Below are positions 6,155 through 60,577 of a stretch of DNA of 64,000 nt, piece after piece. The notes beneath the pieces were generated by a model. It saw nothing but the letters and a program-made list of their open reading frames with translations. It was not told where the DNA came from and did no database searches. The stretch spans positions 43,601,473-43,665,472 of the forward strand of contig OX419758.1 in NCBI GenBank assembly GCA_948567375.1. Reading direction: 5' to 3'. Within the stretch, counting starts at the first letter, position 1, and each line of letters starts with the position of its first letter. Source of the DNA: Lunularia cruciata. Taxonomy: Eukaryota > Streptophyta > Marchantiopsida > Lunulariales > Lunulariaceae. A program made the position numbers and the translations under genes.

Positions 6155-6816
6155 ATTGTGGCACTTTAGAATTCATGTATGACTTATATATGAGTTTTGC
6201 TTCTATAGTGTATGATGTTGACAACAATGTTTGTTGTGTAGTGAAGTATATGCATGAGAGTTATCACAACATTTGTAGCAATGAAAGTAGTTTGCTTGGA
6301 TATTGGAGTGGTAATGTTTGCAATCATAGTTATTTTGGTAGTTGCTCATGGATTACTTGATGGTGGCCAGATTTCATGTTAGGTTAGAGATCACATGATG
6401 AGACACACTATCACTTGCACTATTTGCACTATAAAATGGACCATAATTGATATTATTAGGGCTAGAGATCTAAGTCAAATAGAGGAGTGTACTTTCAAGG
6501 TGCAGCTTCAAAGAGCTCACTTCTCTCATGTTGAGCCTTTGAGTTCCTAGCTATGGTAGATAAAGGCCAACAAGTTTCACCTAGAGTCTTTAAGCTAGAG
6601 TGCATGTGGCGTGATTGTAATCAATGCCCAATTGTTGATAGATTTTTGAGTGGAGGATGAAGTTCAAATCCAATTTGAGTGTGATTCAAGTAGAAGATTG
6701 TGAACTAATATTGTGGCATTTTAGAGTTTGTCTATGACTTATGTGTGAGTTGTACTTCTATGGTGTGTAATGTTGATAGTGACATATGTTGTGTAGCAAT
6801 GTATATATGCACAAAA
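6155..6816 (+). repeat. B1-A2-B2 terminal repeats of the old family D copy
   Basis: A roughly 107-bp unit starting ATTGTGGCAC (B1, about 6155-6261) is followed by a roughly 450-bp unit (A2, about 6262-6709) and then a second copy of the 107-bp unit (B2, 6710-6816). The same order, in reverse orientation, ends the element at 48,512-49,175. The copies here are strongly diverged but line up over their whole length. The 5' A1 unit expected for this family is absent because the copy is truncated. Confidence 0.75.
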
Positions 6817-36200: not shown

Positions 36201-36398
36201 CCGTTCCTTGTGATGCACGGCTCGCAGGATCAGGTCACGGACCCCGATGGATCGCGGGAACTGTTCACCAGGGCTTCATCGCTTCACAAGAACATTCAGA
36301 TCTATGACGGCCTCCTGCACGACCTGCTCTTCGAGTACGAAAAGGACGAAATCATTCGCGACATCATCCAGTGGTTGGACTCTCGGGTGCAGCAGTAG
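33225..36398 (+). CDS. Monoacylglycerol lipase / caffeoylshikimate-esterase-like alpha/beta hydrolase
   Basis: Seven exons with GT-AG introns give 419 residues: 33,225-33,718; 34,478-34,516; 34,680-34,750; 34,865-34,929; 35,206-35,295; 35,432-35,524; 35,991-36,398. The joined length is divisible by three and the phases agree at every junction. The serine-hydrolase fold shows HGLNEHSGRY (oxyanion HG at 172-173), GMDWIGHGGSDG (about 196-208) and the nucleophile elbow GHSTGG with Ser245. Asp368 (VTDPDGS) and His394 (LLHDLLFE) complete the triad. The family cleaves monoacylglycerols or lignin-pathway esters; motifs do not decide which. The N-terminal 164 residues include a poly-Ala tract coded by GCA repeats and a hydrophobic stretch at about 50-75, perhaps a membrane anchor or targeting region. 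The first ATG in frame was chosen as start; an in-frame GTG lies two codons upstream. It is convergent with the 6-phosphogluconolactonase gene. Confidence 0.92.
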
Positions 36399-38153
36399 CT
36401 GATTCATTCATTAATTTCATCCCTATAATCTCTGTTCATTTCTAGGATTATTTCATCTCAGACTAGGATCATCGATGTGATATTCTGAACTTGTGACTTG
36501 ATTACCTTACGTAAAAGTCATCATCATCATGCATAGAGTAGTGCACTACAACAAACCTGCTCGACCCCCAACAAAGGATTTGTACAGAACCCGGGCATGT
36601 GTGGTTAGTTCGCTGGTTGATTGTGGTTCGTGTTCACCAACTGGGTTTGATGCGGTAGCTGTAGACGAAGAAATACTGAACCACTTCTTCGTCATGCTGC
36701 TCATTCTTGCTTCTCGAATCAGGGGTAAAAAAGTCTATTGAGTGGGGTGAGGTTTAGATCTGATCTAGGAGTTGAGTAATGCGACCCGGTCAGAGTTTTA
36801 TATAGCAAGCAAGTCAGCCGAGCCTCTCGTAGTTAAGTCAGGGCTTGTGCAATGTCAATAGAAACAAACATTTAATGGTGAGGAGAGGAGAGAAGAGGAG
36901 AGAAGAAATCGAGGGCAGTAGCAAATATGTAAGTTACAGAGTCCAGCACATGTCTGCAGTCCAGTTCGGTGTTCTGAGTCATATAGAAGTGCTGGCACCA
37001 GCTACTGCCCCTACTGAATAGCGTCTTCTGACTGTTGTTGAGAAGAGCTTCTTTTTGTACCATGTACTTTGCAGGCGAAATATAAAGTTGTAAATTTTAA
37101 GGAGTAATTTACCAAGAAAACATTGTCCTTCATTGTGTATGTGGGAAGCCAGTAGTATCGGGGCAGAAGCTACTTCTTATCCTCCAGAAATGTCCTTTCC
37201 CTTACACCAAAAGTAATCTCCCACTTCTGCGGTGTAGAAAATTGGTTCGTAGATAGAGGTTTCTGCCGTAAACAGTGAGTGTCTGGAAGTTGGACTATGT
37301 AGCCGGATGTCTCGCAGTGTAGCGATACCTTATTTCCTCCCAACTAACTGGTATAGTAGTGTCTGTGATGGCGTGTTTCGAATCTTGCGAGCCCTAAACT
37401 TAAGGCCAATGCGACACTCATGCGGAACCTCGTGTTTCTCCCTGCATGATCAATGTCTACATATCTTGTATTGCATGATTTATTGGATTGCTGTGCACAT
37501 ACTCCTCAAATGCGCAGGAGAAACCTCAAAGACGTCTAGAAACTGTATACCCATTGACTTCTCAGCCAAGATTTGAATTGACAGTATCACTTGGACATGA
37601 GCACCGGTCTGCGCTTTTCTTTGACAACGCAAGCTTTGTGGAAGATTCTGCGTGGGGACGGGATGTCTAATCGCGCATTTGTACTCAGTGAAACCCTTAT
37701 GCCCTAGGTAGATACACATGGAGTACCCATCAGGTAAAGCGAAAGATTAAAGCGAGGAGCACTTCAAAAGCGTATGACTTGCAGATATATAATCCGTAAA
37801 AGTTTGAGGTGGTGTCTCAAACTTTTCACCGATTATGGAATGGAACGGGACGGGGCTTTAGAGGTGATACTCCTACAAATATCTTCAAGGATTTTCATTA
37901 ATTGAAGGGACCCTTATTCAGCGAGATGACCATAAAATTACTTACAAAAGATCATATTTTCTCATTATATTTCCATTCCACGATGTGACGGGTCTGTTCG
38001 CAAGATGTTCAGGAGATTTTCCCCAACTTATGATGGACTAGGGTTTCCCAGCCTACCCGCTAGAAGGAACCTTCAAAACTCGAAGTAGATCTCCCTGAGT
38101 GTGTTTCAGAGACTATATCAAGCAGCTCCCTGACCAGAATTGACACCAACTCT
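36399..38153. other. Intergenic region between two convergent genes
   Basis: It holds the 3' ends of both host genes; UTR limits cannot be fixed by eye. Short frames here (for example 36,529-36,741 and 37,307-37,576) have no family features. A short hairpin at 37,798-37,826 is listed separately. Confidence 0.6.
37798..37826. repeat. 11-bp inverted repeat between convergent genes
   Basis: AAAAGTTTGAG, loop GTGGTGT, CTCAAACTTTT. It lies about 330 bp past the 6-phosphogluconolactonase stop codon. A role in transcript 3' ends is possible but not shown. Confidence 0.6.
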
Positions 38154-39561
38154 TCATAACTTCGAAACTGCAGCCTCGTCAGCAAACCACACTAGTTTCC
38201 CTTTCTCAGGACTTACAAGCTTTGAAGGAACTTGTCCAAAGGGAATATCCCCACCAAAGACTAGTTTCAATTTGTCTGCTTTCCCTGATCCAGTAACTAC
38301 GAAGCCAATATTAGCTGATGCATTTATCACGGGAAGAGTAAGCGTAATCCTCTCTGGTGGTGGCTTAGGCGAGTCCTCGATCGAAGCAACCCATGTATCT
38401 GTTTTTGACACAAGGGGATGATTAGGGAAGAGAGAAGCAAGGTGTCCATCTGGTCCCATTCCCAGAAGCATGAGATCAAAGCGGGGATAATCGCCGGCCT
38501 CATTCAGCGGCACAACATTCTTCTTCACCAGCTGCCTAATGCCAGATTCGTAATCCTCGGCAGCCTTTTGCGGTGAAAGCTGGTCGTTAATGGCGTAAAT
38601 ATTACCAGATGGGATAGGCACCTGAAAGCAGAAATCGTGAAATAATCGTAAACTACAGAAAATTTCATCATCATATCATCATAATGACACCACAGTTATT
38701 GCCGTAAAACCTTAAGCTCTCCTTTTAGTCAGCGGCATACTGCAATGCGTCACTTTGCAACCTTGCAAACTAATTGTAGGTATTGTTCGTAATACCTTTC
38801 CTCAAGAACTCAGTGAACATTTAGTGACGAAGAGGGAATATGCATACCTTCGATAACAATCCATCGAGAGCGAGTTTGTAGTTGCTATCGGGGTGGTCAA
38901 GAGGAACTACACGTTCATCGGCCCAAAATACATGCCATCTGGACCAGTCGATCTTCTCCAGGTATGGGGCCTCTGTCAATTTCCTGAAAAAGAGAATAAC
39001 CGAGATCACGCTTCCGGAGTGACAAATGCACCACGCATATACATACATCCCATGGAGCTACCAAACTCTGTGATTGCCGATGTGCTTAGTTTCCTCAAGC
39101 AAACTAATCTCTAGTCGGACAAAACGATAATGAGAAAGAAAAGAGGAGCGTTCTTCTCACCCCATCGTACTTATCAGCGAACCCCCAGACAAGACGACGC
39201 TAAAGACGCCCCTCTCCTCCACAGCAGCTTTGGAAATTTCGGCAACATACTCCGCTAGATCGGGACTAAGGTTATCCACATTCTCATAAACCCTAAGCTC
39301 CACCCCCTCCTTAACCTGAGTCGTCTTCGCCATTGCACTGTTTCTCGTCAAATTCGACCACGAATTCCTGCCTGAAATTCTATCTTCACCAATTCTTGTC
39401 GAAAATTCACCCTTAAAACCCTTAAAACTACCCGCAGATAAACTCGAAGATCTCTCCCAACAGTGGGTGGCGTTGTATCCCAAACTCAAAGGTAACGATA
39501 CAAGGGCTCCTGAAAGGGCCAGGTTCGGTCGTGCTAGAGTACTCAAACAAGGGAAGTCCAT
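38154..39561 (-). CDS. PGL3: 6-phosphogluconolactonase, plastid/peroxisome type
   Basis: Hydrolyses 6-phosphogluconolactone to 6-phosphogluconate, step two of the oxidative pentose phosphate pathway. Three exons on the minus strand (39,561-39,161; 38,983-38,848; 38,621-38,154) with GT-AG introns encode 334 residues. Family motifs: SGGS at 125-128, WADERVVPLDHPDSNY at about 154-168, and the signature LGMGPDGHLASLFP at about 232-245. The first 76 residues are Ser/Arg/Leu-rich with few acids, like a plastid transit peptide; Met77 begins a MAKTTQVKEG segment close to the usual cytosolic start. The protein ends in SKL, a canonical type 1 peroxisomal signal. Arabidopsis PGL3 is known to combine both signals, so dual targeting is inferred. 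The start at Met1 is chosen because it supplies the leader. No damage is seen. Confidence 0.95.
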
Positions 39562-42500
39562 TCAGCTCAGCTGAAGTAGATCCGTTTTACTGCTCCTGCT
39601 TGAAACTACGAAACAATGCGTGGGCAGCTTTGATTCGAGGAACACTCTCCAGAGCTTGCATGATACTTGCCCTCGACAGGGAAAGCCAATCCTCTTCTCT
39701 TGCTCGTGTGATTTTCTGGTCTCCTCGAGGAAGCACTTGCCTTTCGTCGACTCCGACAGGCAGACTTGCAATGCTACACGTGGCCGCATACAGACTCGTC
39801 TACCCTGTCTAGTCCACGAGGATCTACTCCGTACCCCCTCGGGGCCTACGCTCCCTGACTTTTGATTCTGGAATCAAAATATTTCTGATGATGTTGACGG
39901 GACTACTCAGGGCTCTGAAAAGTATAGTTGCAGTCGCCGTTTCCGTGAGCACTGCATTAGAGGAAAAGTTACTTTAATGTAATACCGAACAAAATAAAAC
40001 TATTTCACACGCTTCACACTTCAACGTGCTACACGTTCCAAATTACCTCGTTTTATTTTTCAACCAGGAAGTTTTTCGAAGTTTATGTCGTTCAATTGGA
40101 TCAGCGTATCTGCAGACCATTCCAGGTAAAATAGATGATAAAAGTCAACAATGCGTTTAATAACCAAGTTCAAAACTGTCTAGGATAAAACATTTTAAAG
40201 AGAAGAAAATACACATTTGAAATTTATTGTAGCACACCATAGTCTATCTTCAGTAAAGGAGCAAGCATTACCATATTATGAATAAATCTAGAGTTAGATT
40301 GATGAATTTTGAGTACATCAAAAATTAATGATGACGGTCAAAATATAATTATTGAAGTTGACTTGATTTACATATAATCTCATTTACCACCTAATAAAAT
40401 ATTTAGATGCAAATATACATACCTGTTACATAAAAAGTTTCCTTTAATTAGATTTACAGAATAATTATTTAATCATAGAAAGCTCATTTCAAACCAAAAG
40501 ACCAAGTAAAATGAATCACCTACTCATTTTACAAGGTTTATTCATTTTCAGTTCGACACTGTGACCTTCCTTTGAGACTTTTAATAAATGATATGTTATT
40601 CCATACGATATATCGTTAGAATTATGTGCAGTATACTTCAAGTAGAATTGGTATAATCAAGATAGTCGCTATTGTTACAAAATTCATGTTTTGTATGTAT
40701 ACTAGGAACCATCTTAACCTTCAATATGATTTGTGACGTGGATGCTTTGATAATGTCTGGATGCAGTAAAGGTACATTTTATAACATCATTTTCAAAATC
40801 CACAGAAATGTAAATCAAGCTCTTTACAGTACATTTACATATTATTTAATTTATAAAATCTAATGTTTGAATGTTGCCTTTTTGAAGCAACTCTATTGAC
40901 CAATAATTTTATTAATAAATAAATTTATAATACAATAATTTATTATTGAAGGATAAATTTATAAATCTCATTCAGTTCCCAAAAGATGAATAAGCCCTTA
41001 ACCACTGTTTGGCTTTATATTATTTACTGCGAGTTGATAACATATATTCATAATATATGTTATCAACATATATTCTGATATGTTGATATCAGAATATGTA
41101 CTTAAAGACTTAAGACTAAGATCTGTATTTCATGTTGTGAGGATGAACAGCAATAAACTTCATTTTTTTCTATTCAGACGAATGATTGTTAGGCTCTGTG
41201 GTTTAGATTTCATTGTTTAATAAGAATATTACTGATATATTAATCAGTTAAAAATTTCCTTACCAATGAAAGGTAAATTAATTTGCGCAATAGGCCAAAG
41301 ACTATTCCATATTAGTTATTTGACATTGAATGGAATACTAGTAACCTTAGATGGAATAATCCATAATATCTTGGGCTAACTCAGCAACCCATCTGAACTA
41401 ACTTAGCATATTGTCTACTAATATCAAGAAGAAAGAGAGAGATATACATATATATAGAGAGAGGCTATATTGGCCATCCACTATTTATAATCGAGTAGAA
41501 GAAATAACAAACTTTCAAAATGAGAAAGTGTTTTTATGTAGCAAATGCACTGTTTGTATATGACAAAAATGTTTGTTATCTATCCCAATATGTCTCATAT
41601 ATTTAATTAAACTTCCCAATAAGTTTACTGTTATTATTTATTTTCTACCCAAAAATCAATTTAAGAAATTAGTTAAACCTAGTTATCATGACTTTTATCA
41701 TAATTTAGAATAAAATTTCATAAATTAAAGAAAAATAATAAGTAAAATGCTACCTTCAATTCAATGCATGTTCAGAATTGAAAACATAAGACATTCATTT
41801 CAAAAGACGGAAACATGAGATTGGGTGTTGAGGTGGAACTTAATCTAACGAAGTGTATGTTTTATATTTGGTTCAAGTCTTAACAAGTGTCTCTAGGAAA
41901 AAAAAACATGAAATAGAGTGATACACAAATAAAGGAAGAGAGAGAAAGAAAGAGAGAAAGAAAGGCTAAAACTTACACAAAAATTTCATGTGAGTGAAAA
42001 TGTTTGAAAATTCATGCTTATCAAAGTTTCAAAATCTTCTGCAGAAAGAAAACATAGAGTTGGAGAGGTGTAACACAATAAAATGTAGAAAATAGAGAAA
42101 AAATTCATTAAGAGAAAATTACATATGCATACAAAAGTTGAATCCTTTACTAAAGACAGTATTTATATATTTATATATTTATATATAGCTCTAATTGTTA
42201 TGCACAGGTGCATAATTCTACCATTATGTATTATATCACTTAGATTAATATACTCATGGGCATGTGCTTATACAATCAATTATTATGCAATAGCTTTATA
42301 AATGAGCCCAAATACTATAATAGAAACATAATAAAAACTATTAAATCTTTAAATTTTCATCTTAAGTATATAGATTAATATATTCATGAGTGCATCATAT
42401 ACAGTAACAAAAACCTCCGTATCCAAACTCATTACTTTATATTAGAAAAAAAATAAATATTAAAAATATTATTAATATTAAAAATTTCTTAAGGAAAAAT

Positions 42501-47575: not shown

Positions 47576-47602
47576 TTAGCCCGTTATGATGCAATCTTAG
47601 GC

Positions 47603-48570
47603 ATGCCATGGATGGAGCAGTACAATCCAATGGTGGATTGGAGGAAGAAAGTAGTGAGAACCCACCAATGGTCAATCATTGGGGTTAAAGAAAAATCACA
47701 CAGGCAGAAACTACCTCTATATGTCGTAGGGACAACAACTGTCTGTAAGACCGATAGATGTTTTATGAGTCTATTAAGAGAAGTCCAGAGTGCACAACTC
47801 GCTGGACAAATTCCTGAGAAATTGAAGGATGTGGTGGATGAGTTTCAAGATGTCTTTCCCGATGATCTACCCTTAGGATTACCACCTAAAAGGCGAGTAG
47901 ATCACAAAATAGAGACACTCCCGGGGAAGACACCTCCTTGTAAGGCCCCATATCGCCTATCACCTCATGAGTTGGAGGAGTGTAAGACTCAAATTGAGGA
48001 GATGCTACAAAAAGGGTTCATCCAACCTAACGTATCACCATATGGGGCCCCTGTCTTGTTTGTGAAGAAGAAGGATGGTACAATGCGCATGTGCATTGAC
48101 TATCGGGGTCTCAATCAGCAAACATGAAGAACAAATACCCCTTACATCGCATGGATGACCTGTTTGATCAACTCCATGGAGCGAGATACTTCACCAAACT
48201 GGACTTGTGGAGCGGTTACAATCAAATCCAAATTGCAGAGGATGTGTACAAAACTACCTTTCAAACCAGGTATGGCCACTTTGAGTATCTTGTGATGCCT
48301 TTTGGCCTCACCAATGCGCCTGCCACTTTCATGAGCCTAATGAATGACATATTTCGTCCATACTTGGATAAGTCTGTTATCGTCTTCTTGGATGATATCT
48401 TAGTATATAGTAGCACGATGACAGAACACAAACAACATCTCCAAGAGGTCCTCCAGATTCTAAGACAGAATCAGTTGTGTGCCAAAATCTCAAAGTGTGA
48501 GTTTGGCAAGTTGTCGTGCGTATATACATCGCTACACAACATACATCGCTGTCAACATCATACACTATAA
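47603..48570 (+). pseudogene. Chromovirus reverse transcriptase, N-terminal part, cut by nested insertion
   Basis: From protease tail ([14 protein letters not shown]) into [47 protein letters not shown], then after a frameshift near 48,122-48,127 [23 protein letters not shown], and the catalytic [11 protein letters not shown] copies the element RNA into DNA. Element sequence ends at GGCAAGT (48,511); the next codons belong to the inserted element. RT resumes at 58,434. Confidence 0.9.
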
Positions 48571-49175
48571 AAGCACAACTCACACATAAGTCATACATAG
48601 ACTCTAAAGTGCCACAATAATCAGATTGCTTAACACTCTCAACTCAACTCAACTCAGATCAGTACTTGATCTGTCACTCTATAAACTGCCAACAACTAGG
48701 CACTGATTACAGTCAAGCCACACCCACTCAAGCATAGAGAATCCAGGTGATGCTCGCCGGCCTCTGTCCACCATAGCCAGGAACTCGAAGGCTCAACATC
48801 AGAGAAGTGAGCTCTCTGGAGCTCACTTTGAAACTATACCCCCTGGACTCGAGCTAGCCCTGAAACCCTAACAGTCCCGCTGACGGCACACTCGACGGTG
48901 CAAACGGTGCAAAGTGACGGTGGGCCCCATCGTGAAGTCAGTACCCCAAACACAAAATCTAACCGTCGGAAAGTAGTCCCTGAGAAATTGCTAGAATAAC
49001 TCTAACTACCATCACTGGAACTCCAGTATCCGAGCATCTAGATGCGGAACTACAAATGGCGTGATAGTTGTCGTGCGTATATACATCGCTACACAACATA
49101 CATCGCTGTCAACATCATACACTATAAAAGCACAACTCACACATAAGTCATACATAGACTCTAAAGTGCCACAAT
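48512..49175 (-). repeat. B1-A2-B2 terminal repeats at the 3' end of the family D element
   Basis: In minus-strand order: B1 49,175-49,069, two bases, A2 49,066-48,619, B2 48,618-48,512. B1 and B2 (107 bp) look identical. A2 differs from A1 (57,986-58,433, both 448 bp) at 14 positions by eye. A polypurine-like AGGGGGG (minus strand, about 49,179-49,185) stands just upstream of B1. Confidence 0.92.
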
Positions 49176-49342
49176 TGCCCCCCTAGCTGGCGGTTAGGTC
49201 CCTCTAACTCCAGATAGCCATCTACTCTAAGTATATGGTATACCCTCTAATGGGCAAAGATCAGGAGGCCGGGTGCTATGGAGCCCCATCGTTAGTCACC
49301 TGTCTGCAATCTATACCATATAAAGAATGAACTAGCTATAGG

Positions 49343-49642
49343 TCAAGTACATCTAGGACATAACCACTGTCCCTGAGGAACCACCGTGAGGGGAGGAGTC
49401 ATACATGCCATATGCCATCCTCTCGAACAGCTATCACACACTAACATAGTAACAGCTCCACCAGAAGAGCCACATAACATACACCTCAAGCCTGCACGTA
49501 CAAGTGCCAAGCTTGGGTCCATAGTACCATCAATGTTTGGAAGGTGGCATGGCGCACAACTGCGCACATGATCCTTCCAAACAACACCATCACGTCCTTC
49601 TAACACAAGGACTCCAGATGGCAAAACCTCACGCACTCTCAA
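49343..49642 (-). CDS. PHD finger at the C-terminus of family D Pol
   Basis: Zinc ligands follow C4HC3: CMLC, 11 residues, CDSC, SRGW, HMAC, 14 residues, CPRC, with the conserved Trp two residues before the penultimate Cys (WLCPRC). PHD fingers read histone H3 tails, often its K4 state. In the pol frame it follows the integrase after a TAG at 49,685-49,687, joined by an SH3-like tail (LRVREVLPSGVLVLEGRDG) like the integrase C-terminal domain. Chromoviruses use a chromodomain at this place to choose target chromatin; a similar role for this PHD finger is inferred. The old copy at 5.7-5.95 kb keeps its relic, so it is a stable part of the family. The frame ends in TGA right after the last ligand. 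Confidence 0.85.
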   Translation of the reverse strand: MRVREVLPSGVLVLEGRDGVVWKDHVRSCAPCHLPNIDGTMDPSLALVRAGLRCMLCGSSGGAVTMLVCDSCSRGWHMACMTPPLTVVPQGQWLCPRCT

Positions 49643-49684
49643 GATAGTGCGGCCTGTAGAAACATCAAGTGTCGTCGGTGCTGT

Positions 49685-50530
49685 CTACTGTAGATATACA
49701 TAGTCGCCTGGATGAAATTGACGGATCGAGGGTCTATAACCTCCTCCTCGAATGGTAGCATAGCGTAAAGTATCTCTATGCTGAGCAATCGCCAAGTTCT
49801 CAAAGGCCATCGGCATCACTCTCCGAAAGATCTCTGCCCGTTGAGAACATGCGCTCATCCATACATCGGGGTCATCCAAGTCCAAAACTATAGTAGCATC
49901 TCGATGAATGGCTGCAGGTAAATCTGGATCTCGTCCATAGAGTAGGAAGTATGGAGAGAAGGATGCTAAGGAGGCTTGCCGGCTGAACCGATAGCCCATG
50001 GCCAACCAAGGTAACTGGAGATCCCAATCTCCCAAGTGGCCTCTCTGCAAACCATACTTTTGCAATCCTCTCTTCACCGTCTGAACCACTCTCTCTGCTA
50101 AGCCATCTGCCTCAGGGTGATCTCGGGATGTAGTATGATGATCAATCAAAGCCTTGTCACACAAGACCTGAAACTCTCCCAAGAACTCTATACCCTGATC
50201 AGTCAAAACCTCAGCTGGTGCACCAAAATGACTAAGAACTTGATCTAGGAACGAGTAAGCTGTCCCTTCACTAGACTTGTCAGGAAGTGCCACCAACTCA
50301 ATCCACTTGGAGAAGTGCTCCACCATCACCAAAACATACCAATGATGTCTCACAGTCAGCGGTAAAGGTCCGGCAAAGTCCAAACTCCAACGGTAACCCA
50401 ATCCCATGATAGGTAATGGGTGTAACTGTGGCGTAGGAGCATTGAATGATGCTCTAACTTGGTCACAAACCATACATCTGGCAACAAACTGCTGTACCTC
50501 GGTCTGCATACCGCGCCACCAATAATGACT
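49685..50530 (-). CDS. Family D integrase
   Basis: DDE integrase core in a 274-codon open frame starting near 50,509. Catalytic residues: Asp44 (WSLDFAGPLP), Asp104 (VLTDQGIEF) and Glu139 (DGLAERVVQ), about 35 residues apart as in retroviral integrases. CMVC near residues 12-15 gives the last two ligands of the HHCC zinc domain; the two histidines (HEELGHFG) lie before a TAG at 50,531-50,533 that splits this from the RT frame. It inserts element DNA into chromosomes, and the AAGT duplication fits such activity. It contradicts a tyrosine-recombinase mechanism despite the split repeats. Confidence 0.92.
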   Translation of the reverse strand, partial: SHYWWRGMQTEVQQFVARCMVCDQVRASFNAPTPQLHPLPIMGLGYRWSLDFAGPLPLTVRHHWYVLVMVEHFSKWIELVALPDKSSEGTAYSFLDQVLSHFGAPAEVLTDQGIEFLGEFQVLCDKALIDHHTTSRDHPEADGLAERVVQTVKRGLQKYGLQRGHLGDWDLQLPWLAMGYRFSRQASLASFSPYFLLYGRDPDLPAAIHRDATIVLDLDDPDVWMSACSQRAEIFRRVMPMAFENLAIAQHRDTLRYATIRGGGYRPSIRQFHPGDYVYLQ

Positions 50531-52222
50531 CTAGAGTAAGCTATATGTACGCTTTACTCCAAAATGTCCTAGCTCCTCATGAGCATGACGGACCAACTGT
50601 GGTCTCTGTGATGGAAGTGGTACTACTCGCACTCTACCATCCTCCCATACACGCAAAAGGTGTCTACCCTCCAATCTGAACCGTCTGGCTCGCTGAAGAA
50701 CACGGTCTCTCTCCTTGGCCCCAACTGTGCCACCCACAACACCAGTGCAAAGATAGTCCATCACTAAGACATCATCATGAATGTCTCGCTGAACTGTACC
50801 AATATCTTCACTCTCTGGATCTGTGACCTCAACAACTCCTCCTGTATGCGCTGAGAGAGATACCACCAAAGTCTCTGCAAATATACACAGAAAGGCCGAT
50901 GCATGCCAACCTCGCACCATCTCCTCATCTGTCTCACCATGCCAACGTGCTCCGGTCTGATCCTGCTGGCTGGGACATGGGTTTCTACTCAACCCATCTG
51001 CATCACGGTTCACCACTCCAGGTCTGTGAACAACCGTGAAATCATACTCCTGTAAAATCAGAGCCCATCGTGCAAGCTTCCCTGAAAGCTTGTCGGACTC
51101 CATCAACCACTTCAACGGCTGATGATCAGTGATGAGAGTGAAGGGGTTACCAAATAGGTAACATCGGAAATGTGCTACTGCCCAAACTGCTGCCAAGCAC
51201 TCTCCCTCATATGAACTATACTTCGCCTCCGCTGAATTGTTGGAGTGACTAGCATAGGCCACCACAAACTCCTTCTCCTCATCATCATGCTGGGTGAGCA
51301 CCGCTCCAAGCCCCAACATACTCCAATCAGTGTGAACCTGAAATGGTCGTCCCTTGATCGGTCTCCTCAAAATAGGAGCAAATGTCAACCTCTCCTTGAG
51401 CTCTACAAAAGCTCTCTCCTGCTCATCTCCCCAACACCACTCCTGTGTAAGCTTGGTCAGCTTTGTCAAGGCCTTGGCAATGGCACTAAATCCTCTAACA
51501 TAGCGGCGATAGAAGTTTGCCAACCCAAGGAATGCTCGCACTCTACTCACATCCGTAGGCCGAGGAATACGTGCAATAGCCTCCACCTTGGTCTGCTGGA
51601 CACCAAGTCCTCCGAGGTAGATTGTGTGACCCAAATACTCAACCTGCTCGTGGAAGAACCTACACTTCCCGAGATGTAGTTTGAGTCCATGAGATCTCAA
51701 CCTCTCAAACATCTCCAACAACTGTCTCTCATGCTCCTCCACAGTAGTGCTATAAACCAAAATGTCATCAATATAGCACCGAGCAAAATCCAATCCAGCT
51801 AGGATCCTATCCATGACCCTCTGGAACTCAGCAGGAGCATTCTTTAACCCAAATGGTAAGAACCTCCACTGATATAACACATCCTTGCCGTGAGGATCAA
51901 TAGCCCAAAATGCTGTCTTGGACTTATCTTCCTCCCTAATCGGCAACTGATGATATCCTACTCGAAGATCCAAAGTACTGAAGACCTTTGCATGCCCAAT
52001 CGCATCAAAAATCTCCTCCGGTGTAGGCATGGCATACCAATCAGCCCTGGTCTGTCGGTTGATAGGACGGTAATCTCCCCACATCCGCCTATCTGTATAG
52101 TTGCCATGCATATCCTTCTTGGCTAGCATCACTGTCGCTGATGCATACTCTCCATGTGAAATCTCCACCAAACCAGCCTCAAAAAGGTCACTACTCCGGC
52201 TCTGAATCAATGTCCTCTCCAT
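50531..52222 (-). CDS. Family D reverse transcriptase and RNase H
   Basis: Intact 563-codon frame. RT landmarks: GDYRPIN (49-55), FSTLDLRVGYHQ (81-92), FLPFGLKNAPAEF (121-133), catalytic YIDD (150-153), and the LGLANFYRRYVRGFS connection (232-246). RNase H has Asp299 (VHTDWS), YEGE (338-341) and Asp366 (TDHQPLKW). The frame continues upstream to about 52,705 through three stops (52,457; 52,244; 52,232), so the true pol start is earlier; there it overlaps the methyltransferase frame. It is Ty3/gypsy by domain order, distinct from the chromovirus RT that hosts it. Confidence 0.95.
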   Translation of the reverse strand: MERTLIQSRSSDLFEAGLVEISHGEYASATVMLAKKDMHGNYTDRRMWGDYRPINRQTRADWYAMPTPEEIFDAIGHAKVFSTLDLRVGYHQLPIREEDKSKTAFWAIDPHGKDVLYQWRFLPFGLKNAPAEFQRVMDRILAGLDFARCYIDDILVYSTTVEEHERQLLEMFERLRSHGLKLHLGKCRFFHEQVEYLGHTIYLGGLGVQQTKVEAIARIPRPTDVSRVRAFLGLANFYRRYVRGFSAIAKALTKLTKLTQEWCWGDEQERAFVELKERLTFAPILRRPIKGRPFQVHTDWSMLGLGAVLTQHDDEEKEFVVAYASHSNNSAEAKYSSYEGECLAAVWAVAHFRCYLFGNPFTLITDHQPLKWLMESDKLSGKLARWALILQEYDFTVVHRPGVVNRDADGLSRNPCPSQQDQTGARWHGETDEEMVRGWHASAFLCIFAETLVVSLSAHTGGVVEVTDPESEDIGTVQRDIHDDVLVMDYLCTGVVGGTVGAKERDRVLQRARRFRLEGRHLLRVWEDGRVRVVPLPSQRPQLVRHAHEELGHFGVKRTYSLL

Positions 52223-52679
52223 ATCACTATATCAATAAGGACGTCAGAAAACTGGTGTGTCGCTAGTCAGCTCAATCCGTATACTAGGTCCCTTCAGAGC
52301 ACCCAAATCCTTCATACTGAAGGCAAAACAACTTGTGTGACTCCTCAAGAACCTCCAAACCCTCCGTCTTTCCTCTCCAGTAAGCTTGGGTCCAAGATCT
52401 GGCTCCCAAGTATCCTCTGTAACTGTAGTAGGAGTGGAAGACGTACTGACTGGCTGCTACACTGGGCCCTTGGGAGCAATGGTGTCATGCTCCCGACCAC
52501 TAGAGGTCCCAACCTCTCTGTGAAAAACTCCCTCCACTCTGGCTGCAAGCTCCATACGTCCTCTGGTTGCATCCCATGTGGACCAAGGGTGTAATCCAAG
52601 TAGCCCACGCTCACCTGGATGGACTCCAAGTAGACCACTCTCCCTAGTAGCTACTGGATGTGTCCCAAGAATACCATGT

Positions 52680-53747
52680 CTACTCGGTCCATCGCTCCCC
52701 AGCATGTTCCTGAATCGTCTCGATAGGCACAGGGCTCACAAGTGTCCGAGTGGTGATGCCTACCAAGCGCATCCTACGCTGCTCTGCCAAACCAAGGCTC
52801 ACAATCCAGGTCAAACAGTTCAGGTCCATAGCCTGACCTAACACCTAATGCCTGGATGCCTCTGACACTGTTGGAACAATGGTAATACCGGTGCGAAAAC
52901 CCATCGCCCACTCTCTCTCATCAGCATTGGGCTCCACCAACTGCTGTAACTGTGAGTCCCAAACAAGTCCAGGTCCTCCCTCTCGAAAAGCATGAGAGCC
53001 TGGGAAACTCATGAGTGTGGGAAATGCAGCTCTAGGCTGTCCAACTAGGTTCACCACTGCCATAGGTGACCTATCAGCCACTGCCACTGTCTGAGACTGA
53101 CGTCCAACATCCAAGATATCATCAACAAGAATGTGGTCTAGTCGCTGAATCCCATCATAACTACGCTGTAGAACCTCTCTGGGTAAAAGGTTCGTCCACC
53201 AAAGACAAAGACGATGAGCCCGTGATCCTACTCTGGCTGCATCTAACAATACAGCAGGTCCCATCCAAGAATGGACCTGATGCGTACTCGCCACCACTCT
53301 AGTGCAAGAATCACCCATCAATGGAACGTTCTCCAAAAGGTAAGCTAGAGAAACAGACTGATGAACTTGGAGATGTCGTAGTCTCCGTAACATCTCCCAA
53401 AACACACCAGAACAAGGATCCTGAAGACCCAAACCGCGGCCCGCACGTGTATGTCCCTGACATGGCCATCCAAAAATCACCAAGTGAATAGGCCCATGTC
53501 TCTCTAGGTCATGCGTCCCCAGTAAGGAAATGTCTCCTGGTAAGGCCTTCTGGTAACCTCTGACTGCTGACATCGGTAATAACTCCGGATACCGATAGGC
53601 CAAGTGTGCCACATGATGTAGAGAGACTCACCTAGCAGTCTCATCTCTCTCTACATACAAGTACCTCTGTACTTGGATACCCGCCTGTAACACCGCAGCT
53701 AGTCCGGTGCTGATCCCACCAAACAACTCCAATAGGCATATCCCCTC
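52680..53747 (-). pseudogene. C5 cytosine DNA methyltransferase within family D gag-pol
   Basis: Catalytic domain between protease and RT, in frame with gag. Motif I LELFGGIST with GLAAVL (about 53,735-53,680); motif IV WPCQGHTRAG, catalytic Cys codon at 53,460-53,462; motif VI LLENVP (about 53,335); motif VIII RAHRLCLWWTN (about 53,215); motif IX-like EREWAMGF (about 52,905); motif X VLGQAMD after a TAG at 52,845-52,847. Between VIII and IX lie about 110 residues that may recognise DNA. The motif order is the normal I-IV-VI-VIII-IX-X, not the permuted plant DRM order; motif I and the AMGF...LG end recall DNMT3-like enzymes while PCQ is the general C5 form. All catalytic residues are present; TGA at 53,628-53,630 and the TAG break the frame. 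Likely role (inferred): methylate element or target DNA. Confidence 0.88.
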
Positions 53748-54467
53748 TACTGGGTACTGCCAAGCAATGAGTGTGGTATCCAGAGGTGTCAAAGCAATCG
53801 CCTCTGGAGGCTCATCCTCACACTCATCCCCTGATGGTACGAAGGCTCCACTCCAAGCCTGCTGCACCAACTGATCTGCATGCTGCTGCAATGCCTCCTC
53901 TGAACTCCACAATGGAACATCCAAGGTGGATGGAACAATCCCACTCGTACTCCATAACCGAGTGATCTCCTCTGGTACTGGAGTATCCTCTGCATGGGCG
54001 TTCCCCTCCAACAAGTCACCAGGCCAAGTAACTGCATCGCTGAAAGCCAAAACTGATGCTGCCATGGTCCCGGACTGTAGTGAGCCAAGATTGCCACTAC
54101 TGAAGCGTACTGGTAGGCGACATACCCGTCCCTCACCAGACTGCCAACCAGGTCTATAAGAGGCTGTCTCCCCCCAATAGTCAATAATGAAACCCATAGG
54201 GTATAACACTGCTCCCCCAACTAGCACATCATAGGACTCAGCTATCGTCGCAATAGCCTGAGCTCTCACCACCAAGCTATCAGTCGGATGACCAGGCTGA
54301 ACTTGGACAACAAGCTCTCCACGTGTGATGTACTGTGTCGAACCACCACCAAGAGATGTCTGGATCTGAAATGGACACCTCTCCACATCGGTCTTCCGTA
54401 ACTCCAGACCAACAACTGCAGCCTTCCCCAACATAAGGGGCTGCGCACCAGAGTCTAACAAGACTCT
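53748..54467 (-). CDS. Family D aspartic protease and linker
   Basis: Starts just after a TAG (54,468-54,470) that separates it from gag in the same frame. The retropepsin site is LLDSGAQPLM (catalytic Asp in DSGA), with DVLVGGAVLYPMGF as the later flap or ILG-type motif. It would cut the polyprotein. After about residue 110 comes a linker of about 120 residues of unknown role, rich in acidic residues, leading directly into methyltransferase motif I without a stop. Confidence 0.85.
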
Positions 54468-56690
54468 CTATGGTGTATAGACCTTCCTTGAAGGTCCCAC
54501 CAAACAAAAGATCCCCCTCTGGTTATCCAATAGGACAACACCAGGTGTAAACCGCGCTCTCTCAAAGGCCGGTCTAGCTGGCAACTCCTCCAGTCTAGCC
54601 GCTGTTGCCTGCCATAAACCACTGGTCGCTGAACGGATCCCATGCTCCTCAACCAAGTCAGCTCCACTACCAACCACCTCTGCTCTAGTAGTAGGAATTG
54701 CACCATCCCTACTCTCACACAACGTGGCAGCCAACCGGAACACTGGGGCTGGGTCCACTCCCAATGTAAACATGTCACTGGCTGAAAATAAAGGATGCCG
54801 CATAATCAGCTGAGCCGCCCCCAACATCATGCTAGACTCAGTCTGTGTAGTAGCAGGTGGCTGACTAGCAGGTACTCCATCAGGTACTCCATCACCACCT
54901 ACTACACCTGCACTGGGACGTCTAGGAACCATGGATGTTGTCTGCAATGCCTCAGATAGCGTGAAAGACTGGGGAAGTCTGACCTGTCTCCCAACCTCTC
55001 CTCTCTGTGGGTCTAACTCCACTGATGCTCCTCTAGGCTCTGGAGCACGTACTGCACTCCTAGTCACTGCTGCAGATGCATCCACTTGTGCTGCTCCGCA
55101 CATGAAGTCCAAAGCATCTCTATCACCAGCATATGAGGTGGAAGCCTCAGCACCCGAATCTGATCTCCTCTGAGCAATAGCCATACTAGCCAATCTTTGC
55201 TCCAACTGCTCAATCCGAGTAGCCATAGCTGTGTCAGAAGTAAGGGCAGGTACTGCACCCCTACTAGGTGTAGATCCTCTACCACCACCTCTACCACCTC
55301 GTCCTCCATGAACTGGAGCTCCTCTACTACCTGTCATAGCAGCCCTACCACTCCGTAACTCCGAGTGTAGGTCAAAACACCGATCACTAGTATGACCAAA
55401 TCTATGGCAGTGCTCACACTGCCTCTGTGCTGGCTGTGATGCACCAGAGGTATCAGGTCCGCTGCCCTGAGTACACTCTCTCCTATGGTGAGGTCCACCA
55501 CAAGTCCAACAAGCAACACCACCACTCATTGGCTGCTGCTGACCCAAAAATGAGGGTAAGGGTCTAACTCCACTAGGATTTCCACTCGCTCCATAGGATC
55601 TGGGCTGTCCACCCTGTCCTCGAAAACCAACTGGGCGTGGTGCACTCTGCTGCACTTTAGAAGAAGTCACAACCGTGGATGAGGTCTCCCTACCAAATCC
55701 AGATGTCACCACTCTCTCCTCCACCATGTTGAGCTCAATACGCTCAGCCAAACCAAAGACTACTGCCAAAGTGGGCAAAGTAGCCTGCAACAACGTAGCA
55801 TCACAAACTCTACGTCGCAACTCGCTGTCCAATATCCCATACCAAAACTGGACTGCCTGGGCCTCAGTAACTCCCTGAGTGAAACTGATCAGCCGCCTCA
55901 TGCGAGTGTATGCCTCGCGTAGGCTCTCTCCAGCCTTCCGCTGGAACTCCTGCAAGCTCCTCAGCTTGTCAGTCCGCACTCCCTGGTAGTTCTGCCTCAA
56001 ACATAAGAAGAACTCCACCATGGGGTTAAACCCCGGTACCACACCACCTCCTGCAGCGGTACCTCAACTCGTAGTAGCACTATCTCCAGCTAGTGCACCT
56101 CCACTAGCTCCACCAACACTACTCGAGCTAGAACTCGTAGGTACAGCCGATCTACTCCTGGCCACCGAGCCTGAAGTGATGGAGACATAGTGAGGAGACC
56201 AATACTGTCTCCATAACTCAATCTCCTCCAAATGAGCTCTCCTGAACTCATGGTAGTCGTCCATCGGTGGACCCTCCAAGTGCTGAAACAACCCCTTCCA
56301 TGCCATGAAGGGTGTGAACAAAGTCGGGTTCCGCATCTACTGCAGATCACACCAACTATCGAACTCCTGGATGAAATCATCCAACTCAATAGTACCCACT
56401 ATACCAGAGTAACGCCTAGGGCCTTTGGAGGCCCCATAAATCTCGTCCATGTCCCACAACAACGGTGCGGACACACCAAGTGCACTCTCAACTGAATCAG
56501 CTCCTATGTCGAACTCCAACTCAGAGTCAATCTCCTCCCTCATTGGGACCTGAGATACAGGCTGATACCGAGCACCACTCCAAGTAAACCCACTGCGTAC
56601 TGCAGGGCTAACTCCTCTGGAATCTCCAAAGAACTCCGTCGTGACCACGTAACTGCAACAGCAAACCCGAACCACCAACTGCAACCGCAA
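54468..56690 (-). pseudogene. Family D Gag with two zinc knuckles
   Basis: One frame with stops at 56,337 (TAG) and 56,064 (TGA). Capsid-type Retrotrans_gag sequence runs from WKGLFQHLEGPP through VEFFLCLRQNYQGVR, LREAYTRMRRLISF and VQFWYGILDSELRRRV. After a low-complexity Gly/Ser/Arg linker come two knuckles, CWTCGGPHHRREC and CEHCHRFGHTSDRC (CX2CX4HX4C), then an RGG-like GGRGGRGGGRG tract. The C-terminal third (to 54,468) is unassigned. It packages RNA and assembles particles in an intact element. It shares its frame with protease and methyltransferase, so a Gag-PR-methyltransferase polyprotein is inferred. Confidence 0.88.
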
Positions 56691-57985
56691 GTCGCAACTG
56701 CAAGTGCCCCACCAAGTGCCAACACCAACTAGACACCACCCACTAATGTAACTCTAACCGAGATAACTACACTAGGGGAAGGGCAACCTGTAACCTGCCA
56801 TCATAACACGCACTCTCACGGTCTGCAGGTCATCACTTCCTGCCTCACCGGAGAGAAACAAAGGTAGTCTGACTGGTCATCACTCCAGCCTCACCACCGA
56901 GAGCACACTAGAGCACCAACGCTCAAAAGTCAAGGCACCTCACACAAACGTGGTGCACAAACAGGAAGCAGAGAATGGAGGGGATCCAATCACAAGAAAT
57001 CTAAACGAAAACCCTCCATCTCATAACACAACACGGGACTGACTCTGCCACCATTTGGCATTTGACATAAGAGTAGTTCGTATCTAAGTCCTAAGCTACC
57101 AGGATCACCAAGAATGGGATCAAACTGCCTCTCCTAGCCAAAGCTACATGTGTATAGATAACAGTGGCACAGTCACTATGACAACAAGTGAGGGTGGACC
57201 AGTTGGCTAGGGCACCAGTCTAGGAACAAGAGATCTAGGGGTCAAACCCTGTTGCGCACAATCTAGCAAGAAAGGCAGATTTTGCCAACCAATGACCAAG
57301 ATCTACACTAAACTAGCTAGCCTCACGACAGCAAGCTGGCTTGCTGGCCCTTCTAGGCCTTCGTAGCCTCTCATAGCCCACAGCCCTATGCCTCAAAACG
57401 CCAAAATTCAGCCAAATGAGGCCTTTCTTGTTGCCACTTCGAACCTCCTCCAAAATTGGCGAAACTTCTCCAAATCTGCGAAACTCCTCCAAACTAGCAA
57501 AACTTCTCCAAATCTGGCCAAACAGCAAAACTCCTCCAATTCTGGCCCAAAATCTGACGTAAATCTGATGTAAAATCTGACGTAAACCCTAAAGATGGGT
57601 GTCCGCCAAATCCCCCGCTAACTTTCCACTCGAGCCAAATTGACAAAACGGGTTTTTCCAAATCACAATTTCATGAGAAGAGCTTTCCAACTCCACCTTC
57701 AATTTCACTTTTTGAGCCCAACTCGCAGCAAATTGGTCCTGCCTTCACCTCCTGAGCTCAAAATCACAACACTGCTCGAAAATTGCTCCTTCTTTGCTCA
57801 AAATTTGGCCAGCGCTTCCGCACACCGTCCGCCTAACTACCAAATCTGCATCAACTGAACAAGCTTCTGCACACTAGGGAAACACATAACTTGAATCGAG
57901 CTACCACGATCCACCGAGCTTGGAGATACCACCAACACTCAACGTTCCTGCACCCGATTTCCCCCTGACTTCACTTCTCTGATGT
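56691..57985 (-). other. Family D leader between A1 and gag
   Basis: About 1.3 kb with no long frame. Just inside A1 the minus strand reads ACATCAGAGAAG, which resembles the ATCAGAG core of the initiator tRNA-Met PBS. A second candidate, TGGTGGCAGAGTC, is at 57,041-57,053. Neither is proven. A tract near 57,400-57,550 repeats AACTCCTCCAAA/AACTTCTCCAAA units on the plus strand. Confidence 0.5.
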
Positions 57986-58433
57986 AATCAGATTGCTTAA
58001 CACTCTCAACTCAACTCAACTCAGATCAGTACTTGATCTGTCACTCTATAAATTGCCAACAACTGGGCACTGATTACAGTCAAGCCACACCCACTCAAGC
58101 ATAGAGAATCCAGGTGACGCTCGCCGGCCTCTGTCCACCATAGCCAGGAACTCGAAGGCTCAACATCAGAGAAGTGAGCTCTCTGGAGCTCACTTTGAAA
58201 CTATACCCCCTGGACTTGAGCTAGCCCTGAAACCCTAACGGTCCCGCTAACGGCACACTCGACGGTGCAAACGGTGCAAAGTGACGGTGGGCCCCACCGT
58301 GAAGTCAGTACCCCGAACACAAAATCTAACCGTCGGAAAGTAGTCCCTGAGAAATTGCTAGAATAACTCTAACTACCATCATTGGAACTCCAATGTCCAA
58401 GCATCTAGATGTGGAACTACAAATGGCGTGACA
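57986..58433 (-). repeat. A1 terminal repeat at the 5' end of the family D element
   Basis: 448 bp, homologous over its full length to A2 (48,619-49,066). It begins TGTCACGCC on the minus strand directly next to the AAGT target duplication. The 107-bp B unit that follows A2 is absent after A1. Confidence 0.93.
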
Positions 58434-59027
58434 AAGTCTGAAGTAGACTACTTAGGGCATAGAGTAAGTGCAGAGGGCATTCAAGTATTGACAGATAAAA
58501 TAGAGGTCATTCAAAAATGGAGTGCCCCAGAAGATCAGACTCAACTTAAGAGCTTCTTGGGGTTGACGGGATTCTATCGTAGATTTGTCAAGGATTTCTC
58601 CAAGGTGGCACAGCCTTTAACGGCACTACTTGGCAAGGGGAAGAAGTGGACATGGGGAACTGCACAAGAGTTGGCCTTTCAAGAATTGAAGGCCGCCTTG
58701 CTACATGCACCAATCTTGAAGTGGTATGACCCAAAACGTCCAATCAAGTTGGCTATAGATGCATCAGGCGTAGCAATAGGAGCAGTCCTACAACAAGAGT
58801 GGCATGACGGATGGCATCCAATTGCATATTTCTCTTGAAAGTTGTTACCGGCAGAGCGCAACCACCACACCACAAAACAAGAAGAGCTGGCCATCGTTCT
58901 AGCAACCAAGCATTGGAAGCACTACCTAGGCGAGAAGGCATTTGTAGTAGAGACAGACCACAAACCTCTAGTCTACCTTGAGACGCAGAAGGATCTATCT
59001 CGTCGCCAAATTTGGTGGGCAGAGTAG
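58434..59027 (+). pseudogene. Chromovirus RT end and RNase H, after the nested insertion
   Basis: Resumes with KSEVDYLGHRVSAEGI, exactly continuing the interrupted KCEFGK. LGLTGFYRRFVKDFS connects to RNase H: AIDASGVAIGAVL (catalytic Asp), then after a TGA at 58,836-58,838 HHTTKQEELAIV (Glu) and VETDHKPLVYL (Asp). A TAG at 59,025-59,027 precedes QRFNMTITYVEGKKQLADAFTR. Confidence 0.9.
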
Positions 59028-60577
59028 CGACAACGCTTCAACATGACAATCACCTACGTGGAAGGTAAGAAGCAACTTGCAGATGCATTCACCCGCATGC
59101 CAATGGCCAACAACTTGGTGACAGAGGTTAAGATTAACCCTGAATTCTGGCAAGAGATTCTGGCTGCTACAAAAATTGATCCACAGATTGTAGAAGCGCA
59201 ATCGTCCAAAGGTGTCACCAGCACCCAAGGACTCACCTTTTGGGAGGGCCGATTGTGGATCCCAAATGTCCCAGAATTACGCACCACCAATGTCATGATT
59301 CGGCCATTGCAGCTCATGTCGGAGTGGACAAGACCTTGGAGGCAGTCAAGCGCTATTACTATTGGCCCAAGATGAGCAACGACGTGATGGACTATGTGCG
59401 TAGTTGCCTACTTTGTCAACAGAACAAAGCTTCTAATCAAGCTCCTGCATGGCTCCTTCAACCTCTCCCCACTCCTACCCAACGTTGGGAACAAGTGAGT
59501 ATGGATCTCGTTTGTGAATTACCCAAGACCACCTCAGGGTTTGACTCCATTGTGGTCTTTGTGGACCGGCTCAGCAAAATGATTCATGTACGCCCTACCA
59601 CCAAGGAGGTGACCGCTCCACAACTAGCTCAACTATACTTAGATGCAGTCTTTGCTCACCATGTCTTGTCTCGAGTACTCATCACCGATAGAGGCACCCA
59701 ATTCACCAGTTTGTTTTGGCGAACACTCTTTGGTTTCTTCAAAACCAAGTTGGCCATGTCTACAGCTTACCACCCACAAACAGATGGCCAAACAGAGCGG
59801 GCCAATCACACGATCAAAGACATGTTACGCGGCTTCACCTTGGAAGAACAAGAGAGGTGGGACACCTTACTACCGTTGGTGGAATTCGCTTACAACAATT
59901 CAGTGAATGCCTCCACCCAGGTCACTCCGTTCTTCCTCCTATATGGTGAGCATCCCTTCACACCTTCTAGCTTGATGAAGATCCGTCCAGTGACTACCAA
60001 GGTTGATGCAATCAACACATTTGTTTCTAGAATCCAACAAGGTGTGGAGAGCACCAAGCACAGGTTACAGATTGCACAAAATCGACAAAAGTAGTATGCT
60101 GATGCACACCATAGGCACATGGAGTTCAATGTTGGGGATCAAGTGTGGCTATCGACAACCAACCTCACATTAGTTGGATCTCGTAAGCTCAGACCTCGTT
60201 TTATTGGGCCTTTCTTGATTCATCGTCGCATTGGCGTTGTGGCCTATCACCTTGAGCTACCACCACACATGAAGATCCATCCAGTGTTCCATGTCTCCCT
60301 ATTACGCAGATACGCTCCCCGATCAGGCCAATGTCCTTCCACACAGGACATTTGACCTTGTCCGACAGTCATTGATGGCATAGAGGAATATGAAGTGGAG
60401 CGGATTCTCCAAAAGCGCATGCGTGATACTCGCCATCCGCGGGTGGAATATCTAGTACAATGGAAAGGTTACCCCCTCTATGAAGTAACTTGGGAACCCC
60501 CTGCCAACTTGGCACATGCACCGGTGTTGGTGCAAGCATTTGAGCAACAATTGCACAACGAGGACGTTGCGTCTTAA
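59028..60577 (+). pseudogene. Chromovirus integrase with C-terminal chromodomain
   Basis: After a frameshift near 59,280-59,310 the HHCC zinc domain shows AAHVGVDKTLEAV and CLLCQQNK. The catalytic core has Asp in VSMDLVCELP, Asp in LITDRGTQFTS and Glu in DGQTERAN, with 35 residues between the last two. The C-terminal region has [19 protein letters not shown] and [12 protein letters not shown]. The chromodomain lies at about 60,385-60,555 (EEYEVERILQKR, EYLVQWKGYP, VTWEPPANL) and would guide insertion to marked chromatin. In-frame stops at 60,092-60,094 (TAG) and 60,353-60,355 (TGA). Confidence 0.93.

Follow-up and report, generated by a model that had tools for sequence, protein, structure and literature searches.

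Retrotransposons are normally targets of DNA methylation, and the locus studied here raises the question of why one would carry the enzyme. It lies in a 64,000-nucleotide stretch of the Lunularia cruciata genome (the window, to which all coordinates refer), for which an earlier note had proposed a Ty3/gypsy retrotransposon encoding its own cytosine DNA methyltransferase (MT), with the MT motifs in order between a DSGA protease and a gypsy reverse transcriptase (RT). All of these motifs were located on the minus strand, close to where the note had placed them. Matches to PF00145 and to gypsy Pol domains, together with 147 scored genome matches, show that the locus is a copy of a multi-copy Ty3/gypsy-type retrotransposon with its own Dnmt3-type C5 cytosine MT domain.

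The features of the window copy are given in Table 1. The same ends were found in eight other copies, and the Pol domains follow the Ty3/gypsy order, i.e., RT, RNase H, and a DDE integrase with H2C2 zinc binding. ORF1 encodes Gag, protease, and MT and ends at a stop (UAG), after which ORF2 continues in the same frame (e.g., L039 and L040) and encodes RT, RNase H, integrase, and a PHD finger. A weak PF03732 match upstream of the zinc knuckles (0.024) falls below its Pfam cut-off. The possible primer-binding site directly after A1 partly resembles the complement of the initiator-Met tRNA end. The element has inserted into a second gypsy element, on the plus strand, and splits its RT between 48504 and 58440; this interrupted gypsy occupies 47576-48570 and 58438-60094 (+), and its flanks give the AAGT duplication. 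The window also holds a distant RT fragment at 1624-2685 (-), about 23% identical to the element RT and belonging to a different retroelement, and an older 5'-truncated relative at 5102-6812 (+), 77% identical, that retains the integrase C-terminus, the PHD region, and two B stretches.

Table 1. Coordinates of the retrotransposon in the window and of its parts.
Feature	Position	Strand	Basis or remark
Whole element, 9,922 bp	48512..58433	-	Ends TGTCACGCC...GCACGACA; repeat ends and flanks
Target-site duplication AAGT, left	48508..48511	.	Read from sequence
Target-site duplication AAGT, right	58434..58437	.	Read from sequence
Repeat A1 (5' terminal, without B)	57985..58433	-	97.1% identical to A2 over 447 nt
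Possible primer-binding site CATCAGAGAAGT, directly after A1	57973..57984	-	Inferred
Gag zinc knuckles (CWTCGG..., CEHCHRFGHTSDRC)	55377..55511	-	Located in sequence
Protease active site LLDSGA (DSGA)	54444..54461	-	Located in sequence
Dnmt3-type MT domain, 330 codons	52770..53759	-	PF00145; ungapped against L039 copy; two in-frame stops
MT motif I, LLELFGGIST	53706-53735	-	Located in sequence
MT motif IV, WPCQGHT, catalytic Cys	53448-53468	-	Located in sequence
MT motif VI, LLENVP, Glu-Asn	53322-53339	-	Located in sequence
MT motif VIII, HRLCLWWTN, altered in this copy	53190-53216	-	Located in sequence
MT motif IX-like	52896-52919	-	Located in sequence
MT motif X, VLGQAMD	52824-52844	-	Located in sequence
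UAG-CAGCCA, ORF1 stop in type I (CARYYA) readthrough context	52442..52459	-	Located in sequence; published motif definition
RT and RNase H	50531..52231	-	RVT_1 8.7e-31, RT_RNaseH 4.3e-36 (Pfam)
RT motif YIDD	51758-51775	-	Located in sequence
Integrase	49685..50530	-	rve 7.6e-13 (Pfam)
PHD finger, C-terminus of Pol	49346..49483	-	PF00628 1.3e-11
Probable polypurine tract, a purine run immediately preceding B1	49178..49184	-	Inferred
Repeat B1	49069..49175	-	110-nt repeat identical to B2 stretch
Two extra bases between B1 and A2	49067..49068	-	AC in this copy
Repeat A2	48618..49066	-	Repeat comparison
Repeat B2 (3' terminal)	48512..48617	-	Repeat comparison

The MT domain contains the C5 MT motifs I, IV (with the Cys), VI (with the Glu), VIII, IX, and X in linear order. 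A profile search with PF00145 (DNA_methylase) matched 52845-53627 just above the cut-off (6.2e-5; 23 bits against 22). A copy with an open frame elsewhere in the genome scored 9.8e-7 with the same profile and 7.9e-11 against DNMT3A, which rules out a chance motif match. The note had assigned the MT to the gag-protease frame; it does keep to one frame, but stops at 54468-54470, 53628-53630, and 52845-52847 break ORF1. The last two fall within the MT, so that motif I, motifs IV-IX, and motif X lie in three separate open stretches. Further lesions outside the MT include a frame shift downstream of it near 52698 and a break near 56740, and ORF1 continues to the UAG at 52457-52459. Motif VIII, although present as claimed, is altered: it reads HRLC in the window, compared to HRLR in 9/9 divergent relatives. 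The window copy is dead.

Other copies are numerous. Scanning the 565.8-Mb assembly with PF00145 gave 123 scored matches among 2,161 candidates; the 147 scored matches obtained with a 260-aa MT segment came from 11,884 first-look candidates and were 93-96% identical (the window's own, 100%), with open frames of up to 1448 aa; they are spread over eight large contigs. We also sampled copies blind to the MT, using an exact 20-base pattern of the B-GC-A repeat junction that occurs 595 times in the genome and 0 times in a reversed control. For 20 junctions, the first in the list and all from contig C1, the expected MT place was fetched; an MT was present in 19 (18 full length, one partial); a one-off capture, which copies lacking the segment would have indicated, is thus ruled out. 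At the remaining junction (L063), a reverse-oriented copy occupies the expected place, so the copy there must be truncated or interrupted.

Many of these domains have decayed. The MT was fully open in three of the 20 junction-anchored copies, with stops in 16, and in 22 of 40 other distinct copies, which were picked by similarity or a long open frame and include the window copy (25/60 overall). Three copies had been entered twice; they were dropped from the residue and C/T counts and kept in the 61-row dN/dS and copy alignment. The catalytic Cys was kept in all 58 copies covering the site, and the Glu and Asn in 59/59 each. The motif VIII arginines were lost more often (R183 in 10/59, R185 in 21/59); all but one of these changes gave Cys or His, the residues that CpG decay would produce. 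A1 and A2 were 96.5-99.1% identical in eight copies and 97.1% in the window; the insertions therefore look recent.

We compared the MT with known methyltransferases by similarity, profile, and phylogeny. As a single sequence, its best solved relatives were DNMT3A (7.9e-11) and DNMT3B, with HaeIII (0.0012), DRM2 (0.006), and HhaI (0.02) further away. A nine-row MT profile gave 58 matches, led by DNMT3A (2.6e-21) and including DRM2 (1.1e-10), HhaI (1.9e-9), and DNMT2 (5.8e-8); no DNMT1 or CMT was found among them. In the tree that the earlier note had suggested (24 rows, including four provisional reference sequences; L003 and L004 are not among them), the 17 transposon MTs, i.e., 16 relatives and the L039 copy, formed one clade (99/97), which joined host Dnmt3, human DNMT3A, and host DRM in a wider clade (100/98). 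Its placement as sister to Dnmt3 plus DRM was supported at 49/65 only, with long branches flagged. These comparisons indicate that the MT is Dnmt3-type and on the Dnmt3/DRM branch, with DNMT1, CMT, DNMT2, and bacterial enzymes all more distant than DNMT3A. A bacterial-type or CMT-type MT, first suggested by the PCQG motif, is disfavoured by all three lines of comparison, and DRM identity is ruled out by the linear motif order, I to X, without the rearrangement that places VI-X before I-V. The genome's own MT genes, named from motifs read by eye, are Dnmt3-like (L001 and L004), a CMT-like exon (L003), and a DRM that reads rearranged (L002). They share C5 MT motifs with the transposon MT, and host Dnmt3 belongs to the same broad family; the host genes, however, appear intron-split, and the transposon MTs form a separate clade in the tree.

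The branch leading to the transposon clade is long (1.31 changes per column), and the motif IV Pro is Glu in three of nine divergent members. Such divergence would fit an MT that acts on something other than element DNA, i.e., one that is a passenger, methylates the tRNA primer or genomic RNA, plays a structural role, or, as proposed in PMC6338049, protects the host cell from DNA viruses. We consider these uses very unlikely, given that none of the nine divergent members departs from the catalytic Cys, Glu, and Asn or from the two motif VIII arginines, and that the domain is closest to DNA enzymes, DNMT3A and DRM2, rather than to DNMT2.

Rates of substitution were compared across the element in nine recent copies from this one genome (eight with a long open ORF1 and the window). 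The MT had a dN/dS of 0.39, compared to 0.31 in protease, 0.37 in the linker, 0.22 in RT, 0.45 in RNase H, 0.65 in Gag, and 1.19 in integrase. Neutral simulations, run with C-to-T rates from the 61 MT rows (doubles included), gave 0.79 +/- 0.20 for MT and 0.75 +/- 0.22 for integrase. Across all pairs of the 61 MT rows (doubles included), the MT dN/dS was 0.37. The integrase value is at odds with uniform selection along the element.

The position of the MT within ORF1 bears on how it would be made. ORF1 stops with UAG at 41/42 loci, i.e., in 39/40 distinct copies including the window (L017 differs), and CARYYA follows in all 39 distinct UAG copies. UAG-CARYYA matches the type I readthrough motif described for tobamoviruses (PMC5382211). 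Because the copies are close kin, its recurrence counts as one observation, for which a hand estimate with equal bases gives a chance of about 1 in 512. In this context the MT should be made with Gag; if readthrough operates as in tobamoviruses, RT, integrase, and PHD finger would follow at a lower level.

The PHD finger, whose pairing with the MT the earlier note had also read correctly, is closest to that of CHD4 (3.7e-14) and also matches PHF21A, KDM5, AIRE, and UHRF1, as well as KMT2D, DPF3, and KAT6A. The CHD4, PHF21A, and UHRF1 readers prefer H3K4me0; the KMT2D, DPF3, and KAT6A fingers read other marks. No chromodomain model was found after the integrase among Pfam matches with E up to 1 in the window and up to 0.1 in the open-frame copy.

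These features suggest a model to which we give even chances: the ORF1-encoded MT is made in Gag-like amounts and, since it lies before a leaky stop, is packed into the particle and methylates the element's own cDNA, while the PHD finger steers the integrase. Within the particle or the nucleus, the MT would methylate the double-stranded cDNA de novo; new copies would therefore arrive already marked as silent, host-like DNA, which would hide them from the sensing of foreign DNA and make them less of a burden on the host. The PHD finger, which occupies the chromodomain position of chromoviruses, would probably guide the integrase to chromatin with unmodified H3K4. Self-methylation of cDNA, which de Mendoza et al. 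proposed (PMC5890265), seems to us the likeliest function on the sequence evidence; in the same work, a yeast assay of the MT domain of a Klebsormidium nitens retrotransposon showed no methylation, a result described there as inconclusive.

The same domains could instead serve targeting or tethering, with MT and PHD finger modifying or recognising target chromatin so that insertions land in silent DNA and cDNA methylation is not the point. The PHD finger follows the integrase both in the window and in 20 of 24 relatives with an integrase core, it is close to the CHD4, PHF21A, and UHRF1 readers, and the window copy sits inside another gypsy. We nevertheless regard this as unlikely, since MT and integrase-PHD are encoded by different ORFs with different expected amounts and the finger resembles KMT2D, DPF3, and KAT6A as well.

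If the MT marks its own DNA, the copies might bear its trace. Over all pairs of 58 low-gap MT copies, with the direction of change left unassigned, C/T differences per site were 7.9% at CG, 5.4% at CWG, 2.1% at CCG, and 1.2% at CHH; the copies therefore probably lie in CG- and CHG-methylated DNA. A low CCG value is the trace expected from plant CMT3, and we take the pattern, high at CWG and low at CCG, to reflect host CMT and MET rather than a Dnmt3-type enzyme; it shows no sign of the element's own. CpG observed/expected came to 0.45 for the window copy; eight others gave 0.44-0.47, slightly below the neighbouring gypsy (0.48 and 0.49), and CWG was enriched in the element copies (1.41-1.54). 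The host-like C/T pattern and the CpG ratio near that of the neighbouring gypsy, along with the three of 20 open MTs and the R185 losses, count against self-methylation of cDNA. Elsewhere in the window, 32000-40000 has a CpG observed/expected of 0.82, compared to 0.25-0.49 in most other stretches measured, and is possibly less methylated or genic.

The terminal repeats are not those of a standard gypsy element. Rather than two matching full LTRs, the 5' end has A only and the 3' end has B-GC-A-B, and the order A1-coding-B1-GC-A2-B2 held in 8/8 further copies and the window (the two bases between B1 and A2 are GC in 7/8 other copies and AC in L044 and the window). Such split direct repeats, A-coding-B-A-B, are of the DIRS type. 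In place of the DIRS tyrosine recombinase without target duplication, however, there are an rve integrase and clean 4-bp duplications in 7/8 copies (ACAA, GTGC, CACT, CCTC, CAGA, CATA, and CCTA; not in L040). A starts with TGTCA and B ends with GACA, which makes the B-GC-A junction GACAGCTGTC a perfect palindrome (GACA-GC-TGTC) resembling a retroviral circle junction. This palindrome holds two CHG sites in other copies; in the window (49064-49073) both are altered, G-to-A, as methylation decay would give.

Ordinary reverse transcription from primer site to purine tract would yield linear DNA with a terminal repeat B-GC-A. The integrated ends fall at the GC inside B-GC-A, with B2 at the far end, and the simplest route would be joining of the linear ends into a circle that is later cut at one of its GC junctions. 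A cut at the second would produce A-B-A-coding-B, a form seen at 0/20 sampled junctions (19 with MT, as in the first form, and one truncated or interrupted). We know of no such circular route of replication for retroelements with a DDE integrase.

A circular intermediate suggests another use for the enzyme, namely that methylation protects or licenses the circle from which copies arise by opening at B-GC-A; this would also give a shared reason for the MTs of DIRS elements (Dam and Dnmt3) and of the Klebsormidium gypsy element. We find this doubtful. The repeat order in every copy studied, the 4-bp duplications in seven of eight copies and the window, the palindrome with its 595 exact pattern matches, and the DIRS and K. 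nitens architectures (PMC5890265) all fit it; but the circles are deduced from sequence only, the alternative opening that random junction choice predicts was absent from the 20 junctions, and DIRS elements without a DNMT exist (PMC5890265). The fuller version, in which an old streptophyte gypsy-type lineage inserts from a circle, its DDE integrase cutting GACA-GC-TGTC, and a Gag-made Dnmt3-type MT methylates that circle, appears rather improbable. If true, MTs would recur in split-repeat elements, i.e., DIRS and those described here, because each kind goes through circular DNA irrespective of its integrase.

Whichever function applies, the MT extends beyond Lunularia. Three protein searches returned 107, 61, and 217 matches (the best 120 of the 217 were taken in). 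The hosts named among the matches listed were Marchantia polymorpha, Marchantia paleacea, Riccia sorocarpa, Calypogeia fissa, four Sphagnum species, and Closterium sp. NIES-53; every organism named there is a streptophyte, and no Klebsormidium sequence was named. MT identity across all the relatives was about 30-76%. Two scans of viral contigs for DNA relatives confirmed none. Among the 61 polyprotein matches, 24 had an integrase core, and it was in these that precomputed Pfam annotations placed the 20 PHD fingers; for the named bryophytes among the matches listed, the PHD finger occurred only on one partial Marchantia protein (P0232).

The MT precedes the RT in the Marchantia and Closterium relatives too, so its place between protease and RT is not confined to the Lunularia genome. 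Three proteins (P0138, P0145, and P0161) have a second position for the domain, in the order RT-RNase H-MT-integrase-PHD. Tree distances for MT and RT agreed (Mantel r 0.835, 0 of 2000 permutations) across 22 rows, i.e., 21 relatives with both domains near full length and L039, and each tree shows a single change of MT position, although 10/19 inner branches per tree are weak. The MT has thus probably accompanied the element from a time before the two layouts diverged, as if both had been inherited together. A single MT clade and a matching RT tree make the MT look like a long-term property of the element; membership of the clade is by tree for this genome, Marchantia, and Closterium and by sequence similarity only for Sphagnum, Riccia, and Calypogeia.

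The principle has been known since 2018, when separate MT captures were reported in dinoflagellates and one charophyte (PMC5890265); here it is more widespread and differently built. The nearest described system, KnitGypsy-Dnmt3 of K. nitens, likewise combines gypsy domains, an unrearranged Dnmt3-type MT without introns and under purifying selection, and DIRS-like repeats, as described in PMC5890265. In contrast to the Lunularia MT, which lies in ORF1 before a UAG in readthrough context, the KnitGypsy-Dnmt3 MT lies in the Pol ORF, and the main text of PMC5890265 describes no PHD finger; that element is from one charophyte, with fewer copies than in Symbiodinium, whereas ours is present in many copies and has relatives among liverworts, Sphagnum, and Closterium. 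In Symbiodinium, SymbioDIRS-Dnmt3 and SymbioLINE-Dnmt are also retrotransposons with a C5 MT, and the former shares split repeats and a Dnmt3-type enzyme; they rely on a tyrosine recombinase or on LINE machinery, not on a DDE integrase that leaves 4-bp duplications, and the SymbioLINE MTs are an orphan lineage (PMC5890265). Chromoviruses such as moss RLG1 (PMC7466625) have the same gypsy Pol order and a histone-reader-type domain after the integrase; the Lunularia element differs in having a PHD finger for the chromodomain, plus an MT and split repeats. MT-carrying transposons are described as absent from tracheophytes (PMC6338049), and DNMT3 members inside streptophyte and dinoflagellate retrotransposons are mentioned in PMC12344493. 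Among the published titles and abstract openings listed, there was no bryophyte element of this kind beyond PMC5890265 and its citers, and the integrase-PHD finger was not named. One study of methylation in Marchantia lists five methyltransferases, grouped into three classes, with no DNMT3 match in its main text (PMC5784723); these Marchantia genes may therefore have been overlooked. The same MT domain is present in annotated proteins of Marchantia, a plant grown in laboratories, and the PHD finger, readthrough context, and split repeats make the role of the MT testable there.
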